64,000 bases of DNA from positions 1,490,876-1,554,875 of the forward strand of contig NZ_LT828648.1 of NCBI RefSeq assembly GCF_900169565.1. The letters run 5' to 3'. The translations under genes were made by a program, and so were the position numbers. Of the stretch, positions 15,609 through 22,962 are shown piece after piece. The first letter of the stretch is position 1. Each line of letters begins with the position of its first letter. The notes under the pieces were generated by a model. It was given only the letters and a program-made list of their open reading frames with translations, ran no database searches and was not told the origin of the DNA. This stretch comes from Nitrospira japonica. Lineage in GTDB: Bacteria > Nitrospirota > Nitrospiria > Nitrospirales > Nitrospiraceae.

Positions 15609-16382
15609 ATGATGGGTGGAGCGATGACGACTCAGACACTCGATACGATCGCGGAGGCCGTAGATCAAGCCGTGGCGCGCTTGGATTTCGATCGCCTTCA
15701 CCGGGAATATTGGGAACAAAACGAATTCCTCGTGATCCCGCAGTTCCTCGATCGGGCCATGGTCGAGGAATGGCTGGTCCCGCAGGCTCAGGGAGTCAAA
15801 GGCGACCTCAACCGTAACTATATTCCCGGCCATAAGAAAGGCGGGAGCGTCAGTTACTACACGGTCATGGAAAAGGCGCCCCGATTTCTCGATCTCTATC
15901 GCTCACAGGTCTTCATTGAGTTCCTCAGCCGGCTGTCCCACGCAAAGTTGAGACTCTGCCCGGACAACGATCCCCACTCCTGTGCGCTTTATTACTATAC
16001 GGAACCGGGCGATCATATCGGCTTCCACTATGATACGTCGTATTACAAGGGAAGCCGCTATACGATTCTCATGGGTCTGGTTGACCAGTCTACTCACTGC
16101 AAACTGGTCTGCGAACTCTTCAAGGACGATCCCGTCAGACCTTCCAAGCGGCTTGAACTCATTACCCAGCCGGGCGACATGGTGATCTTCAATGGGGACA
16201 AGTTGTGGCATGCCGTGACCCCGCTCGGCCCCAACGAGGAACGGATTGCGTTGACGATGGAATATGTCACCAATCCCGACATGGGAACGTTCAAGCGACT
16301 GTATTCCAATCTCAAAGACTCCTTCGCGTATTTTGGCCTTCGGGCCGTCTTCAAGCGCGCGTTGTCGTTGCCTCGCCGCTAG
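15609..16382 (+). CDS. 2-oxoglutarate/Fe(II)-dependent oxygenase family protein
   Basis: The 257-residue protein has a complete Fe(II)/2-oxoglutarate site: His140 and Asp142 in HIGFHYDTSYY, distal His201 in KLWHAVTPL, and Arg212 in ERIALTMEY for the 2OG carboxylate. The fold is the double-stranded beta-helix of prolyl hydroxylase/PhyH-like enzymes. Substrate is unknown; hydroxylation of a small molecule, lipid or protein are all possible. Starts at 15609, 15612 or 15624 are all plausible; GGTGGAG precedes the last. It follows lolA by 40 nt and may share its transcript. Confidence 0.8.
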   Translation: MMGGAMTTQTLDTIAEAVDQAVARLDFDRLHREYWEQNEFLVIPQFLDRAMVEEWLVPQAQGVKGDLNRNYIPGHKKGGSVSYYTVMEKAPRFLDLYRSQVFIEFLSRLSHAKLRLCPDNDPHSCALYYYTEPGDHIGFHYDTSYYKGSRYTILMGLVDQSTHCKLVCELFKDDPVRPSKRLELITQPGDMVIFNGDKLWHAVTPLGPNEERIALTMEYVTNPDMGTFKRLYSNLKDSFAYFGLRAVFKRALSLPRR

Positions 16383-17391: not shown

Positions 17392-17901
17392 CTACTGGTG
17401 CAGGTGCTTCATGGCGGCGGCGCAGAGGATGATAAAGAATCCCATCCAGAGGGCCGCCCGTTGGAACGGAATGACTTCATAGGTCTCCGTCTCGTCGTCC
17501 TCACCCTCATCCTTAAAGATTACGGTGTACAGGAAGAGCGTCAGGAGACAGAGCACGAGAAACAGCTTGATGAAAAACACGATGAGGTATTTGGGATGAT
17601 GCTGGACGCCGGCGCCGGTCTGCGACACCAGCACCTGATTGACATAGTGTAGATTGATCCCTCCCGTGAACAGCAGGACGACTAGGAGGATACCGGCGAC
17701 TTTCTTGTAGTGCTGATAAAAGATGTCGGTGATGGGCTTGATTTGCTGCCTGGGCACGGCTTTTTGCAGCCCAGGGGTCACCGCCATCACAAGAAACGCG
17801 AGGCCGCCGATCCATATGACGGCGGAAAGGAGGTGAAACCAGTGGTTGACGATGGGAATCAGCGTATTGAGATCTGTGACGATGCTTTGAAGCGCGTCCA
17901 T
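17392..17901 (-). CDS. CopD-like four-helix membrane protein
   Basis: The 169-residue protein has four transmembrane segments. The first reads NHWFHLLSAVIWIGGLAFLVMAV, matching the 'H..s..iWiGG' signature of the CopD/YebZ copper-export superfamily. The remaining helices fall at about residues 68-85, 105-127 and 148-163. The final MKHLHQ adds histidines that could bind metal or heme. It is the last gene of the minus-strand run USP/PCP_red - radical SAM - this gene. Copper handling or a heme-linked redox role are both possible. Confidence 0.7.
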   Translation of the reverse strand: MDALQSIVTDLNTLIPIVNHWFHLLSAVIWIGGLAFLVMAVTPGLQKAVPRQQIKPITDIFYQHYKKVAGILLVVLLFTGGINLHYVNQVLVSQTGAGVQHHPKYLIVFFIKLFLVLCLLTLFLYTVIFKDEGEDDETETYEVIPFQRAALWMGFFIILCAAAMKHLHQ

Positions 17902-17929: not shown

Positions 17930-17998
17930 TTGAATGTTGGGTGCTGAAGTCTGAGCTATCGGAAACTACACACTCACGACTCAACACTCAAAACTTGA
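17930..17998. repeat. Heptad-word array A, paired arms
   Basis: The 86-nt gap after the radical SAM gene is built from degenerate 7-nt words held in strict register. On the plus strand the first arm reads TTGAATG, TTGGGTG, CTGAAGT, CTGAGCT (17930-17957). The second arm reads AACTACA, CACTCAC, GACTCAA, CACTCAA, AACTTGA (17964-17998), five words of the form xACTxxx. The arms are roughly reverse-complementary, so the transcript could fold. The radical SAM stop codon lies inside the second arm. Confidence 0.7.
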
Positions 17999-19373
17999 AG
18001 ACAGGAGCGTCATTCCCGAACCGCTTCTTGCGCAGCTCCTCCATCAACTCCACGGTGATGAGCGTGACGTGATGTTCCCGGGCGTGCTTTTCGACGCCCT
18101 TTTTGACCATGGCCCTGAGAAAGTAAGGGATTCGGCTCAATCGCAGCGCGGAAGCATCATCCCATAGGACTTCCGACTCTTCCGGTGTATTGAAGGCGAC
18201 CTTGATCTTCTCGCCTCCCTTGGGCGTATAGAGGCACCATTGATCTTCGTCCAGCCAATCCCCGTGGTCGACGTACGGCCTGGCGCGGCAGCCGCCGCAG
18301 ATGTCCGTATACTCACAGTCGCCGCACTTGCCCTTCAGCTGCGGGTAACGGAACGAATTGAACACGTCGGATTGCTCCCACAGATCGGCGAAACTGTTCG
18401 AACGGACGTTGCCGGCCGACAACGGCATGTAGGGGCATGGCGTGAGCTCGCCATTGGGTGTAACGCGGGCGTAGTTCGTTCCGGCGAGACATCCGCCGCC
18501 CATGTAGCCCGTCGCCTTTGTGATCGGAGAATTGGGATCCTTCTCATAGGCGAGCCGCTTGAAATGTGGGGCGCAACGGGCTCGCACTAACATTCCTTTG
18601 TAATTGTCCTGGCAGGTCACGAGGTACCCGAGCACTTCTTCATACTGAGCCGGAGTGATGTCGGTCAGTTCCTCGCCCCGGCCGGTACAGACCATGAAAA
18701 AGACGTTCAGCACTCTCGCGCCCAAGCCGTGCGCCCACTCGATCACCGCCGGCAGTTCCTGGTAGTTCATCGGCTGTGCGCTGAAGTGGACCTGGAATTG
18801 AAGCCCATTTCGCTTGCTGGCCTCGATGCCGGCAACCGCGGCTTCCCACGCACCCGGTACCCCTCTGAACCCATTGTGCTTGGCTGCGTCGAGGGAATCG
18901 ATGCTGATGCCCACTCCCATGACGCCGATGTCTACGAGCGTGCGGGCCATCTGGTCGTCAATGAGCATGCCATTAGTCCCGAACACGACCATGAAGCCGG
19001 ATTGCACGGCATAACGGGCGATGTCGAGAATGTCCGGGCGCACCAACGGTTCTCCTCCGGTGATGACGAGGAGGCACCCCTTGTTGACTTGGGCGATTTG
19101 ATCGATGAGCCGGAAGCATTCTTCGGTCGATAACTCGTCGTCGCCGCCCGCGGCTTTGGTGGTGGCGTCCAGATAGCAGTGATCGCATTTGAGGTTGCAG
19201 CGCTTCGTCAGGTTCAATGCCACCAGATACGGTTTGAAGTCGTCCACCGTCCGGCCGTCCAGGGGGCCGTCCCCCTGCTTGGCGGGAGTGAAAACATTCG
19301 TGATCTGTTGTTGAAACGAACCCAGCGCTCCGGAGAGCGCAGGGTTATTCAAAATTGGAAGTGATTTACCCAT
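17988..19373 (-). CDS. Radical SAM/SPASM protein with C-terminal PCP_red domain
   Basis: The 461-residue protein has the radical SAM cluster motif CNLKCDHC (Cys59, Cys63, Cys66), a GGEPL SAM-binding motif and a SPASM-type cysteine set (CPYMPLSAGNV, then KCGDCEYTDICGGC). This is the layout of NirJ/AhbC/AhbD-like and peptide-modifying enzymes. It ends in a PCP_red domain (about residues 400-450: SRIPYFLRAMVKKGVEKHAREH), the small domain also found at the C-terminus of the light-independent protochlorophyllide reductase B subunit. The upstream gene, 27 nt away, carries three more such domains. A tetrapyrrole-related role is an inference. Confidence 0.88.
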   Translation of the reverse strand: MGKSLPILNNPALSGALGSFQQQITNVFTPAKQGDGPLDGRTVDDFKPYLVALNLTKRCNLKCDHCYLDATTKAAGGDDELSTEECFRLIDQIAQVNKGCLLVITGGEPLVRPDILDIARYAVQSGFMVVFGTNGMLIDDQMARTLVDIGVMGVGISIDSLDAAKHNGFRGVPGAWEAAVAGIEASKRNGLQFQVHFSAQPMNYQELPAVIEWAHGLGARVLNVFFMVCTGRGEELTDITPAQYEEVLGYLVTCQDNYKGMLVRARCAPHFKRLAYEKDPNSPITKATGYMGGGCLAGTNYARVTPNGELTPCPYMPLSAGNVRSNSFADLWEQSDVFNSFRYPQLKGKCGDCEYTDICGGCRARPYVDHGDWLDEDQWCLYTPKGGEKIKVAFNTPEESEVLWDDASALRLSRIPYFLRAMVKKGVEKHAREHHVTLITVELMEELRKKRFGNDAPVFKF

Positions 19374-19400: not shown

Positions 19401-21485
19401 TTAGGAACTCAATTTCCCGGTGAGGTTTGCGATCATATCCTTCAAGTTGCCGGTCTTCATGGCGTCGGCCATGTAGCCCTTGGCTTGCTCGATGCCTTCG
19501 TTGGCCACTTCCACCGTGATCATCGTCACTCCGAGCTTTTCGGCATGCTTGATGATGAGCGCCTTGGTGCAGTCCCGCATGAATCCTTCCGGAGCGCGGT
19601 CCAGTCTGGCTTGGGCGTCGGCCGTCCATGTATAGGGAGAAGACTCGGTGTGACCGTTGTCGGCCGCATGGCCGTTTTCATGCGTGCCATTGGCGCCCAC
19701 GGCGGCCACCTTGGCTTCCGCCTCCGCCGAGGTCCCGGCGCCTTTGTTGGCGAAGATCGGTTCGTAGTCTTCCTCCGCGGCTTCCTTGATCGTCGGCGCG
19801 GCGTATTCAAGCGTGATAGTGGTCATGCCCAGCTTGCGGGCGCTTTTCTCGATCTTGGCCTTGGCCCGCCGCCGTTGGAATCCGGCCGGAACGGCGCGGA
19901 TCGCCTCCTTGGCATCCTTGGTCCATTGCATCGGCACGTCGTCGTAGGCGACGTCGGTCTCAAGGTCGCCCTCCGACTTGGCGGCCGCTTCGAAGATGCT
20001 CTTGTCCACCTGCTTGAACCTGCCGCCTTCGGCACCGCACACCGGACATTTCACCGGCGTGTCGCCCTTGCCGATGTATCCGCACCCGTCGCATACGAAG
20101 TAGTTCTGGTTCATGCGGTCGAGATAGGCCTGGGTCGCGTCCGATGCGGCCGGCTTTTCCTCGACCACCTGAGTCATCATGCCGCTGAGCGTCGAACCCA
20201 TGAGATCTTTGGCGACGGCGTCATCAGCCTGCATTTTGTCGCGGTCGATACCGGCAGCATCGAGATTGCCGCCGAGCGCCCGCATCGCGTCCATGGCGCC
20301 TTTCGGCAGGATATGGCCCACAGCCGCATCCACGACCGTATTGCTGATGATGGTGTGCCCTTTTTCAATGGCATAGCGATGAATGGCGGTTTTGGCCACG
20401 CCGCGGGCGAACACGGGAATCCTTTCCATGCGGCGCAAGGCTTCCTCGGTCCAGGCAATCGTGTACTCGGCCTGCGTGTCGATCGGGGGCACATACTTCC
20501 GATTGGAGACCAGCACGTTGCAGGGGGCGCTCCGGAGCAGATTTTCCGTGTTGCTTCCGACGTCCATGTCTTCGTCGCTGTGGACGCCGATCCGGCCGAC
20601 GATCAGCAGGGCGGGAACATCCTTGCGGACGTATTGAATGATTTTTTCGAACGCCTTGCCGTCGAGCAGAGTGGTCTTCACGTCGGTCTGCTCCGCCTGG
20701 GCGATCTCGCGCGAAATATCGAGGTGCGATTGGTAAATCTTGGCGAGGCCGCTGTCGATGATCTCCTCGTGCAGCTTTTCCTGCTCTTTGAAGCGGAACA
20801 CCTTGCCGGCTTCCTCGTTCAGGACGCCCGAAATACTGTGGAACGCCGCGTAATGGAAATAGGGATCGAAGGCCGAAATGACCTCGACCGGCATATTGAA
20901 GGCCTTGCCCAACGACAGCCCGGTCATGAGGCCGCCGAACGAATACGGGCTGCCGTCCACCGCGACGACGATCTTTCCGCCCTCGAACGGCTGAATGTTC
21001 TTGATGATGAGCATGTCGGAATTGCGGACCCGGCGGATCACCCGCTCGGTGTTGCTGCCGATCACGCTGTCTTTGACAGCGCCCACGCCGAGGGCGCCCA
21101 TGATGACGAGGTCATACGCGTTAGTGTTGATGTCCTCGGCCAGCACCTTCCAGTTACGGCCCTCGAGAGACCGCCGTTCGACCGGCAGGTTCGCCTCATT
21201 ACACTTCTTGTCGACGTAATCGAGGTAGGAGTCGGTGATGATCTGCAGGCCGCGGGTGATCAGCGAATCATGGATCTGCCGCTGCCGGTCGAGTTCTTTC
21301 TCGTCGTGATACTCTTCCGGGAGTCCCGCTTCCATCTGTTTGAAACGTTTGTCATGCATTTTCGCCGCGTAGACATGGCTGCCGACGATCTTCGAGCCGA
21401 ATGCCTTGGCCAAATGCACGCCCATATCCACGGCGGTATTGGAATGGTCGGAATTATCGACCGGAACATAAATCGTCTTATACAT
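19401..21485 (-). CDS. Tandem universal stress protein with three PCP_red domains and a rubredoxin-like knuckle
   Basis: The 694-residue protein is a fusion. USP domain 1 spans residues 1-165, with the ATP-site pattern G130-x2-G133-x9-G143-S144. USP domain 2 spans 170-330, with G297-x2-G300-x9-G310-S311. PCP_red domain 1 lies at 345-392. A rubredoxin-like knuckle follows (Cys465, Cys468, Cys480, Cys483). PCP_red 2 (519-565) and 3 (618-668) flank an acidic/Ala/His-rich linker. ATG 21485 is preceded by AGGAGG at ideal spacing. It heads the likely operon with radical SAM and CopD-like genes. ATP binding, iron binding and perhaps tetrapyrrole contact are suggested; the actual role is unknown. Confidence 0.88.
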   Translation of the reverse strand: MYKTIYVPVDNSDHSNTAVDMGVHLAKAFGSKIVGSHVYAAKMHDKRFKQMEAGLPEEYHDEKELDRQRQIHDSLITRGLQIITDSYLDYVDKKCNEANLPVERRSLEGRNWKVLAEDINTNAYDLVIMGALGVGAVKDSVIGSNTERVIRRVRNSDMLIIKNIQPFEGGKIVVAVDGSPYSFGGLMTGLSLGKAFNMPVEVISAFDPYFHYAAFHSISGVLNEEAGKVFRFKEQEKLHEEIIDSGLAKIYQSHLDISREIAQAEQTDVKTTLLDGKAFEKIIQYVRKDVPALLIVGRIGVHSDEDMDVGSNTENLLRSAPCNVLVSNRKYVPPIDTQAEYTIAWTEEALRRMERIPVFARGVAKTAIHRYAIEKGHTIISNTVVDAAVGHILPKGAMDAMRALGGNLDAAGIDRDKMQADDAVAKDLMGSTLSGMMTQVVEEKPAASDATQAYLDRMNQNYFVCDGCGYIGKGDTPVKCPVCGAEGGRFKQVDKSIFEAAAKSEGDLETDVAYDDVPMQWTKDAKEAIRAVPAGFQRRRAKAKIEKSARKLGMTTITLEYAAPTIKEAAEEDYEPIFANKGAGTSAEAEAKVAAVGANGTHENGHAADNGHTESSPYTWTADAQARLDRAPEGFMRDCTKALIIKHAEKLGVTMITVEVANEGIEQAKGYMADAMKTGNLKDMIANLTGKLSS

Positions 21486-22179
21486 CGAGATGCCTCCTCC
21501 GGGCCCTCTCACCGTCAAGGTCGAACCGTCATAATTGCCAGAAAAACCAAACGGTTGACAAACCTATCCAGTGTAAAAGAAGCGGCATGATAGCACCGAC
21601 CATCTCGGGAATGCAAGGCGACCCGTAGATAGCCACATCACCGCCGGGCTGGCTCCGAGCGACAACCATCTGATCAATTCGGAGATCTCGATTCATGACG
21701 CGCAAGCTTAGTGCCAAGCGAGCATGAACGCCGGATTTCTTGAAAAAGATGTCGGAACAAAGGGACACAGGCAACGGGCGCGTGACCGGACAAGAGAGAA
21801 ACGCCGGCTCGAATACAGTGGGAATCGTGAAGGAAGGCGATTTGTGACGAAGAGGCGCGGCCCTTCGCGGAAAGATTAGCCGGTGGGTTGAGAACCCAAC
21901 CACGCTGAGCGCGGTCATGTGGAAGAGTGCGTCAGCGATGTTCCCTTGTCGATCGATGAGGCACGGGACCTGGACGCTCGGAGGATTTCTTCGAGCGAAA
22001 GCAAGGCGTCGCGCCCGGAATTGCCTTCAATGCCGCGGGCGAGGTTGGCGTCGGCATATTGGCCGTGATTCCAATCGGATAGATCTTTTTTTGCAGGGCA
22101 GGAAAATGTAAAGGATGGAGTTCATGGCCGTGAAATTGTGAGCGGTGATTTTAAAACTGAAAACTCACAACCGAACACT
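21486..22179. other. Intergenic region upstream of the USP operon
   Basis: About 690 bases separate the USP gene from ubiE, both on the minus strand. A 129-codon frame at 21529-21918 (minus) has no family signature and a composition unlike its neighbours, so it is not called. The region next to 21485 must contain the USP promoter; a TTGTCA on the minus strand near 21558 is a weak -35 candidate. The far end (22130-22179) holds heptad array B. I found no other structure. Confidence 0.5.
22130..22179. repeat. Heptad-word array B after ubiE
   Basis: Directly after the ubiE stop the sequence consists of 7-nt words in register on the plus strand: GTGAGCG, GTGATTT (22138-22151), then TAAAACT, GAAAACT, CACAACC, GAACACT (22152-22179). 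One more GTGAAAT word lies at 22130, shifted by one base. The GTGA-type words and the AAAACT/CACAACC-type words run toward each other as a loose inverted pair, as in array A. Word sequences partly match array A when both are read from the minus strand (AGTGTT..GT.GTGAGT). Confidence 0.6.
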
Positions 22180-22962
22180 TTATTTCATGGCAATATGGAT
22201 GGCGACGATGCCGCCCGAGAGGTTTCGATAGGAGACCTCCCGGAAGCCGGCTTCCTTCAGGATCACACAGAGCCGTTCCTGATCGGGAAACGTCCGGATC
22301 GAGGCCGGAAGATATTCGTAGACCCCCGTCCTGTCATGGGCGACTTTCGTGCCGATCCACGGCAGCAACGTAAAAGAATACCAATCATAGAGGGCGCGAA
22401 GCCATCCGAAAACCGGCCGGGAAAATTCCAGGCAGACGAACGTCCCGCCCGGTTTCATCACACGGCGGATCTCTCTCACGGCCTGCGCCAGGTTGCCGAC
22501 GTTGCGCATGCAAAAGCCGGTTGTCACCGCGTCGAATATATCGTCGGCAAACCCCAAATGCTCGGCGTTCGCCTGGAGACAGGTCACTTTTCCCGCCAAG
22601 CCCTTGGCGGTCACCTTTTTGAGCCCTTCCGCCAGCATGGCATGGTTCAGATCGGAGGCCACGACGCGTCCCTTTGCGCCCATGCGAGGTTCCAGCAACA
22701 GCGCCAGATCGGCCGTGCCGGCTCCGACGTCGAGGGCAGTGCCGTGCTCCACCGGCGGTACGCAGCGAGCGGTTCGTTTTTTCCAGCGGTGATGGAGGCC
22801 GAAGCTCAGTAGCGTGTTATTCAGATCGTAGACGCCCGCGATGGCCGTAAACATCCGCTGCACGGCCTGCTCGCGGGCTTCGCCCGACCAGGTCGAGATG
22901 GTGCGGGCTTCCGCGTCGTTCCCGGGTGGAGACTGTGTCACGGATTCCTCCACGGACAGCAT
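22180..22962 (-). CDS. ubiE: Demethylmenaquinone/ubiquinone methyltransferase
   Basis: UbiE/MenG methylates demethylmenaquinone (and, where present, a ubiquinone precursor) using SAM. The 260-residue protein contains the family start MFTAIAGVYDLNNTLLSFGLHHRWK, SAM motif I ALDVGAGTADLAL, and the GFCMRNVGNLAQAVREIRRVMKPGG segment diagnostic of UbiE. In this setting menaquinone synthesis, feeding the nuo complex, is the likelier role. It is divergent from uvrA with a short shared promoter region. The 'ubiE' symbol is family-level; menG would be equally valid. Confidence 0.92.
   Translation of the reverse strand: MLSVEESVTQSPPGNDAEARTISTWSGEAREQAVQRMFTAIAGVYDLNNTLLSFGLHHRWKKRTARCVPPVEHGTALDVGAGTADLALLLEPRMGAKGRVVASDLNHAMLAEGLKKVTAKGLAGKVTCLQANAEHLGFADDIFDAVTTGFCMRNVGNLAQAVREIRRVMKPGGTFVCLEFSRPVFGWLRALYDWYSFTLLPWIGTKVAHDRTGVYEYLPASIRTFPDQERLCVILKEAGFREVSYRNLSGGIVAIHIAMK

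Follow-up and report, generated by a model that had tools for sequence, protein, structure and literature searches.

Results and Discussion

The fusion gene and its operon

The window analysed here, a stretch of 64,000 nucleotides from Nitrospira japonica, carries at 19401–21485 on the minus strand a gene (ATG at 21485) for a protein of 694 aa, named protein A in the following, in which two USP domains are followed by a PCP_red domain, a rubredoxin-like knuckle and two further PCP_red domains. A Shine-Dalgarno-like GGAGGAGG (21493–21500, minus strand) is located 7 nt upstream of the ATG. Make-up and length are as in the original prediction, which was made from the sequence; the strand had to be corrected to minus. 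The gene of protein B (17988–19373, minus strand) follows 27 bp downstream and encodes a member of the AhbD/NirJ2 group of radical SAM/SPASM enzymes that carries PCP_red at its C-terminus (aa 404–448, 18030–18164, minus strand; Pfam E = 1.7e-12), and the third gene of the operon (17392–17901, minus strand) encodes a CopD-like/DUF4149 membrane protein of 169 aa.

We compiled 92 fusion ORFs, and in all 81 loci with enough flank the radical-SAM gene lies directly after the fusion on the same strand, frequently with an overlap of 1–4 bp; the other 11 loci stop within ~1.1 kb of the fusion. The CopD-like gene is the third one, downstream of A and B, in 42 of the 43 Nitrospira loci of at least 17 kb and also in several other families. 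The fusion had at first been seen as a single protein. The protein is real, but the unit to be considered is the operon together with the set of five PCP_red proteins described below.

Also found in the window is a gene for MpqE, the methyl-plastoquinone methyltransferase (22180–22962, minus strand; NF052510, 409 bits, above cut-off). A B12-binding radical-SAM protein, which matches the cyanobacterial slr0320 family over its full length but below cut-off, is present in 36 of 43 Nitrospira loci and, in the loci inspected for this, is located between the genes of MpqE and the fusion, but is missing from this place in the present window. It is possibly part of methyl-plastoquinone synthesis. On the plus strand, 15609–16382 encodes a protein that resembles 2OG-Fe(II) oxygenases and weakly matches the halogenases HalD and WelO5.

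Protein A

USP domain 1 (aa 1–155, 21021–21485) and USP domain 2 (~aa 169–330, 20496–20981, both minus strand) are matched by the Pfam family Usp in two stretches (E = 9.2e-35, 120.7 bits against a cut-off of 24) and both possess the intact ATP motif G-2x-G-9x-G-S (G130-x2-G133-x9-G143-S144 and G297-x2-G300-x9-G310-S311). The Pfam match to PCP_red (E = 6.3e-33) comprises three stretches on the minus strand, aa 345–388 (20322–20453) as the best one, aa 521–560 (19806–19925) and aa 620–661 (19503–19628), with 53.7, 41.7 and 38.4 bits, each above the cut-off of 32.5 bits. The knuckle at aa 463–491 (20013–20099, minus strand) shows the pattern CxxC(465/468)-x11-CxxC(480/483) and matches RUBY_RBDX (PF21349) with 24.2 bits, slightly below the cut-off of 26.5 bits, which is exceeded by the knuckle of the relative L191 with 44.8 bits. 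The Oxidored_nitro core (PF00148) is absent from protein A according to Pfam.

Among 36 relatives of protein A no variation is seen at the ATP-motif residues G133, G143, G297, G300, G310 and S311 and hardly any at G130 and S144, and a helical insertion in USP2 carries the invariant residues D207, H211, F215, F230, K233, Q235, E236, H239 and D244. In 79 Nitrospira orthologs all seven Cys including the four of the knuckle are invariant, and USP1, USP2, PCP1 and PCP2 are 95–96% conserved, compared to 58% for the linker preceding PCP3. Synonymous differences amount to ~0.6 and nonsynonymous ones to 0.04–0.06. The overall pairwise dN/dS of 0.03–0.04 indicates strong purifying selection, with values near 0.01 in PCP1 and PCP2 (where estimable) and 0.1–0.2 in the linker. 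At least 80 Nitrospira-type records contain the fusion, with 83–94% identity; the best 80 of 355 matches in the contig scan were all Nitrospira-type but one titled Nitrosospira. A plasmid search gave generic USPs only. The expected conservation of the fusion in relatives holds, whereas the knuckle is not essential to the architecture, being absent from the families f11 and f34.

The AlphaFold2 model of protein A (mean pLDDT 75.8, pTM 0.57) shows two USP folds and three helical PCP_red units. The USP folds resemble those of the tandem ATP-type USPs Rv2623 and TTHA0350 with ATP (Foldseek E 1e-15 to 1e-10), and in the model each PCP_red segment consists, at moderate pLDDT, of three helices that keep a common register (347–353/358–375/382–392, 523–529/536–551/559–571 and 622–629/635–651/658–678). 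From the Pfam matches, the invariance of motifs and Cys, the model and the low dN/dS we conclude that the domains of protein A are real and under selection. The assignment of two ATP-type USP domains and three PCP_red domains, the latter modelled with three helices each, is thus confirmed, as are the four Cys of the rubredoxin-like knuckle, whose profile score falls just short of the cut-off in protein A, and the fusion architecture is not due to chance.

Protein B

The best NCBIfam matches of protein B are NirJ2 (321.6 bits), AhbD (TIGR04545, 313.9 bits) and TIGR04053 (264.2 bits), compared to 130 bits for the mycofactocin and 105 bits for the PqqE maturase, with all scores being below the respective cut-off, which for AhbD is 500 bits. 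Its radical SAM and SPASM core aligns across the full AhbD model, and in 26 sequences C59, C63 and C66 of the CxxxCxxC motif as well as C295, C313, C350, C353, C359, C362 and C380 of the auxiliary-cluster/SPASM part are invariant. The predicted structure (mean pLDDT 76.4) has PqqE, SuiB and anSME as fold neighbours; AhbD may be without a solved structure that the model could match.

In a phylogenetic tree with midpoint rooting the PCP_red-bearing radical-SAM enzymes form one clade, a paralogous sister to the AhbD-like enzymes, with the AhbC-like ones being located outside. Many Nitrospirota genomes encode both an AhbD-like enzyme (424–453 bits) and the PCP_red enzyme (~280–340 bits). As it belongs to a clade of its own and coexists with AhbD-like genes, protein B is not simply a heme b synthase. 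Its ancestry nevertheless speaks for a substrate that is an iron tetrapyrrole or related to one.

Scanning viral contigs (IMG/VR) with protein B revealed one AhbD/NirJ2-like protein without PCP_red. It is a 695-aa protein (L217:4999–7086) whose N-terminal half has no assignment and whose other half is the AhbD/NirJ2-like radical-SAM part, and its gene adjoins an apparent terminase large subunit.

A set of five PCP_red proteins

PCP_red is usually filed as a chlorophyll-synthesis domain, and according to the original prediction it contributes to pigment binding at the C-terminus of BchB in the light-independent protochlorophyllide reductase (DPOR). In a whole-genome profile search we found 12 copies in five proteins of the window's genome: three in protein A (the tandem USP fusion with knuckle), one in protein B (radical SAM), two in protein C, which carries a zinc ribbon and is encoded directly after Mrp/ApbC, four in protein D, and two in protein E, which has Cys motifs (zinc ribbon) and whose gene neighbours are DUF420 and a cytochrome bd-like oxidase. 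A search of this genome for DPOR or nitrogenase-like genes gave no match above cut-off and only one below it, which bears out the proposed use of PCP_red outside photosynthesis. The related statement that nothing else in the window suggests photosynthesis had overlooked the PCP_red encoded by the adjacent gene at 17988–19373. Our search of openly licensed papers found none describing PCP_red outside DPOR.

Among 197 Nitrospirota genomes with a completeness of at least 85%, every Nitrospiria genome contains PCP_red, mostly in 8–13 copies (3 in one f7 genome), and genomes outside the class contain 0–8. A second draw of 396 genomes agreed with this, except that some of the less complete genomes had fewer copies. 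The copies have in common a Trp, Ile/Val-Pro, a hydrophobic or aromatic residue, a Glu and Ile-Thr. No Cys or His is common to all 12 copies of the genome, and PCP_red is therefore unlikely to be a redox centre or to provide an axial ligand by itself; a role as metal or heme ligand was rejected on the same grounds. Its repetition, mixing and fusion would fit a docking module.

The five proteins are also connected by their gene order. Outside Nitrospiria the arrangement is simpler: the families f11 and f34 have USP-USP-PCP-PCP without the knuckle, and in f24, f25 and f29 a stand-alone tandem USP adjoins the radical-SAM-PCP gene and PCP_red is present on protein B alone. In f5, f8 and f9 protein A has grown to ~900 aa, with two additional PCP_red and two additional knuckle-like CxxC pairs. 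In deeper lineages members of the set are joined in operons or fusions, with Mrp/ApbC and CopD-like/DUF420 membrane proteins close by. L127 has B and D joined in one chain (D match of 41% over 332 aa), A, B, D and the CopD-like gene form a single operon in L194 and L191, and L140 has A, B, CopD-like, D, C, Mrp and DUF420 inside ~8 kb. In 28 of 31 loci Mrp is immediately followed by protein C. Because of these shared operons and fusions the five PCP_red proteins likely work together. In f24, f26 and f34 the USP gene or the radical-SAM-PCP_red gene has as neighbour a conserved family of ~220–255 aa (F1, ~240 aa) without Pfam or NCBIfam match (L188:11560–12291, L185:7551–8285, L186:11888–12649 and L131:5173–5826).

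In family f18 PCP_red is found at the N-terminus of a chlorite dismutase/HemQ-fold protein (L133:5036–6061; L228–L242). This applies to 15 of 15 genomes, each of which has a single PCP_red, located on its only protein of this family. In all of them R, A or T takes the place of the aligned His of the Nitrospira HemQ type; the fusion may thus lack the usual mode of heme binding, which weakens it as a proof that heme is bound. PCP_red thus recurs on three families of tetrapyrrole chemistry, BchB, AhbD-like and HemQ-like, and the evidence for a tetrapyrrole link is real, if indirect. From the suggestion that PCP_red might be a general tetrapyrrole or redox-partner module, the tetrapyrrole part is hence supported by the AhbD-sister enzyme and the HemQ-fold fusions, but not a redox or pigment-ligating function of the domain itself.

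Neighbourhood of respiratory and heme genes

Cytochrome bd-like and NXR-like operons are found near the A-B pair in lineages other than Nitrospira. In three families (L182, L183 and L184) the pair is located directly beside an NXR-like type II molybdoenzyme operon (L182:965–9123), which encodes a TAT-bearing alpha subunit of 1149 aa, a beta subunit, c-type cytochromes and a bd-like oxidase, and in L183 also a chaperone. These neighbours suggest a respiratory destination. The window's genome has three full-length NxrA-like genes (G000:C1 2097345, 761026 and 880635) with 41–42% identity to the f25 enzyme. With respect to heme synthesis it encodes two HemQ/Cld-family genes and one HemN_C protein, and no clear pattern of complementarity between the PCP_red system and HemQ/HemN was observed.

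Proposed function and alternatives

Taken together, the data point to a conserved, hitherto undescribed system of several proteins that probably makes or fits a cofactor. Our preferred model, which we put forward tentatively and as somewhat short of an even chance, is an ATP-responsive cofactor-maturation complex docked by PCP_red, with protein A as the ATP-binding scaffold or regulatory subunit. The complex would probably serve an iron tetrapyrrole or the Fe-S chemistry associated with it. PCP_red would act as a small three-helix docking module, as we infer from its repetition and fusion, and its 12 copies would gather A, B, the four-PCP_red linker D and the zinc-ribbon-PCP_red proteins C and E. 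Protein C would couple the complex to the Fe-S carrier Mrp/ApbC and thereby to the Fe-S supply. Binding and release of ATP by the tandem USP of protein A, which has the invariant charged USP2 insertion (D207, H211, K233, Q235, E236, H239, D244), might switch assembly or substrate access. The radical chemistry would be carried out by protein B, whose substrate would most likely be an iron tetrapyrrole or a precursor of one, and the product might reach membrane respiratory proteins through the CopD-like and DUF420 partners.

As peptides are the substrate of most SPASM enzymes, the system might instead modify a peptide or protein, with B as SPASM maturase and A presenting or regulating the protein substrate. 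The SPASM domain, the fold neighbours PqqE, SuiB and anSME and the F1 family adjoining the pair in f24, f26 and f34 are in line with this idea, which we nevertheless regard as unlikely, as the sequence of B is far closer to AhbD/NirJ2 than to the peptide maturases and no small conserved peptide that could serve as precursor came to notice in a survey not aimed at short ORFs.

Protein A could also be a stand-alone stress or redox sensor, as originally suggested, in which the USPs sense ATP, the knuckle iron or the redox state, and PCP_red a tetrapyrrole signal. Its intact ATP motifs and the knuckle Cys, invariant in Nitrospira, would suit such a sensor, and several UspA proteins, perhaps with the counterpart of protein A among them, are up at low O2 in Nitrospira marina (PMC8115632). 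The invariable coupling to a catalytic radical-SAM gene, the loss of the knuckle in f11 and f34, PCP_red without a conserved ligand and the failure to find in protein A any domain for DNA binding or signalling output make us doubt this possibility a little more than the previous one.

That B is the heme b synthase of the organism, with AhbD activity on iron-coproporphyrin III and A as a helper, is improbable. The match to the AhbD model is full-length and AhbD takes the place of HemQ in some organisms (PMC7242693), but at least seven B-bearing genomes also have a separate AhbD-like gene (424–453 bits), B stands in its own clade, and the window's genome has the HemQ/Cld-family and HemN_C genes mentioned above. 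A plain heme b synthase identity of B was therefore rejected. Least probable of all is that the system is dedicated to maturing nitrite oxidoreductase or related type II molybdoenzymes, since the pair does border the operon with the TAT-bearing enzyme in L182–L184, which is 41–42% identical to the NxrA-like genes of the genome, but is not near nxr in Nitrospira and the genomes G157 and G095, with 13 and 9 PCP_red copies, have no NXR-like enzyme, so that an NXR-specific role was rejected as a general rule.

Returning to the PCP_red-docked complex, it could in its most far-reaching form be an ATP-gated system for tetrapyrrole modification and delivery that is universal in the class Nitrospiria, in which the AhbD-sister B produces a modified heme destined, for instance, for the cytochrome bd-like oxidases typical of Nitrospira, and PCP_red is an ancient docking module in common with chlorophyll synthesis. 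We consider this extended version unlikely as a whole. If the tetrapyrrole reading was true, it would provide a concrete gene set and a candidate enzyme for heme chemistry in Nitrospira, and the C-terminal domain of BchB would be seen as a docking module rather than as a pigment ligand. Either way, PCP_red is the commonest module across a five-protein set that is kept by a whole class of non-photosynthetic nitrite oxidisers and their relatives, and there are now testable partners for PCP_red and for a USP family.

Comparison with known systems

The PCP_red domains resemble PCP_red (PF08369) of BchB/ChlB in DPOR (2KRU, 3AEK, 2XDQ, 8VQI), with the same Trp start, the 'IP-F-R' turn and the 'IT' before helix 3, and copy 1 of protein A matches BchB-type PCP_red with phmmer E-values of 7e-4 to 0.05. 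In contrast to BchB/ChlB, protein A has no nitrogenase-like core and carries PCP_red three times joined to USPs, in a genome without DPOR. Asr4154 from Nostoc (2L09) is likewise a case of PCP_red outside BchB, but is a single stand-alone protein of 62 aa and not a fusion. Protein B has the same radical SAM and SPASM core as AhbD/NirJ2 over the full AhbD model and differs in its score below cut-off, its position in a sister clade, its C-terminal PCP_red and its coexistence with AhbD-like genes. With its CxxC-x11-CxxC pattern the stretch at aa 463–491 resembles the rubredoxin-like domain (PF21349) of rubrerythrin and nigerythrin, whose di-iron domain is not present in protein A and whose cut-off is narrowly missed. 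Finally, Rv2623, TTHA0350 and UspE also have two ATP-type USP domains per chain, but protein A shows only 17% identity to them, has its own helical insertion with invariant D/H/K/Q/E/H and adds the C-terminal PCP_red domains, the knuckle and an obligate radical-SAM neighbour.
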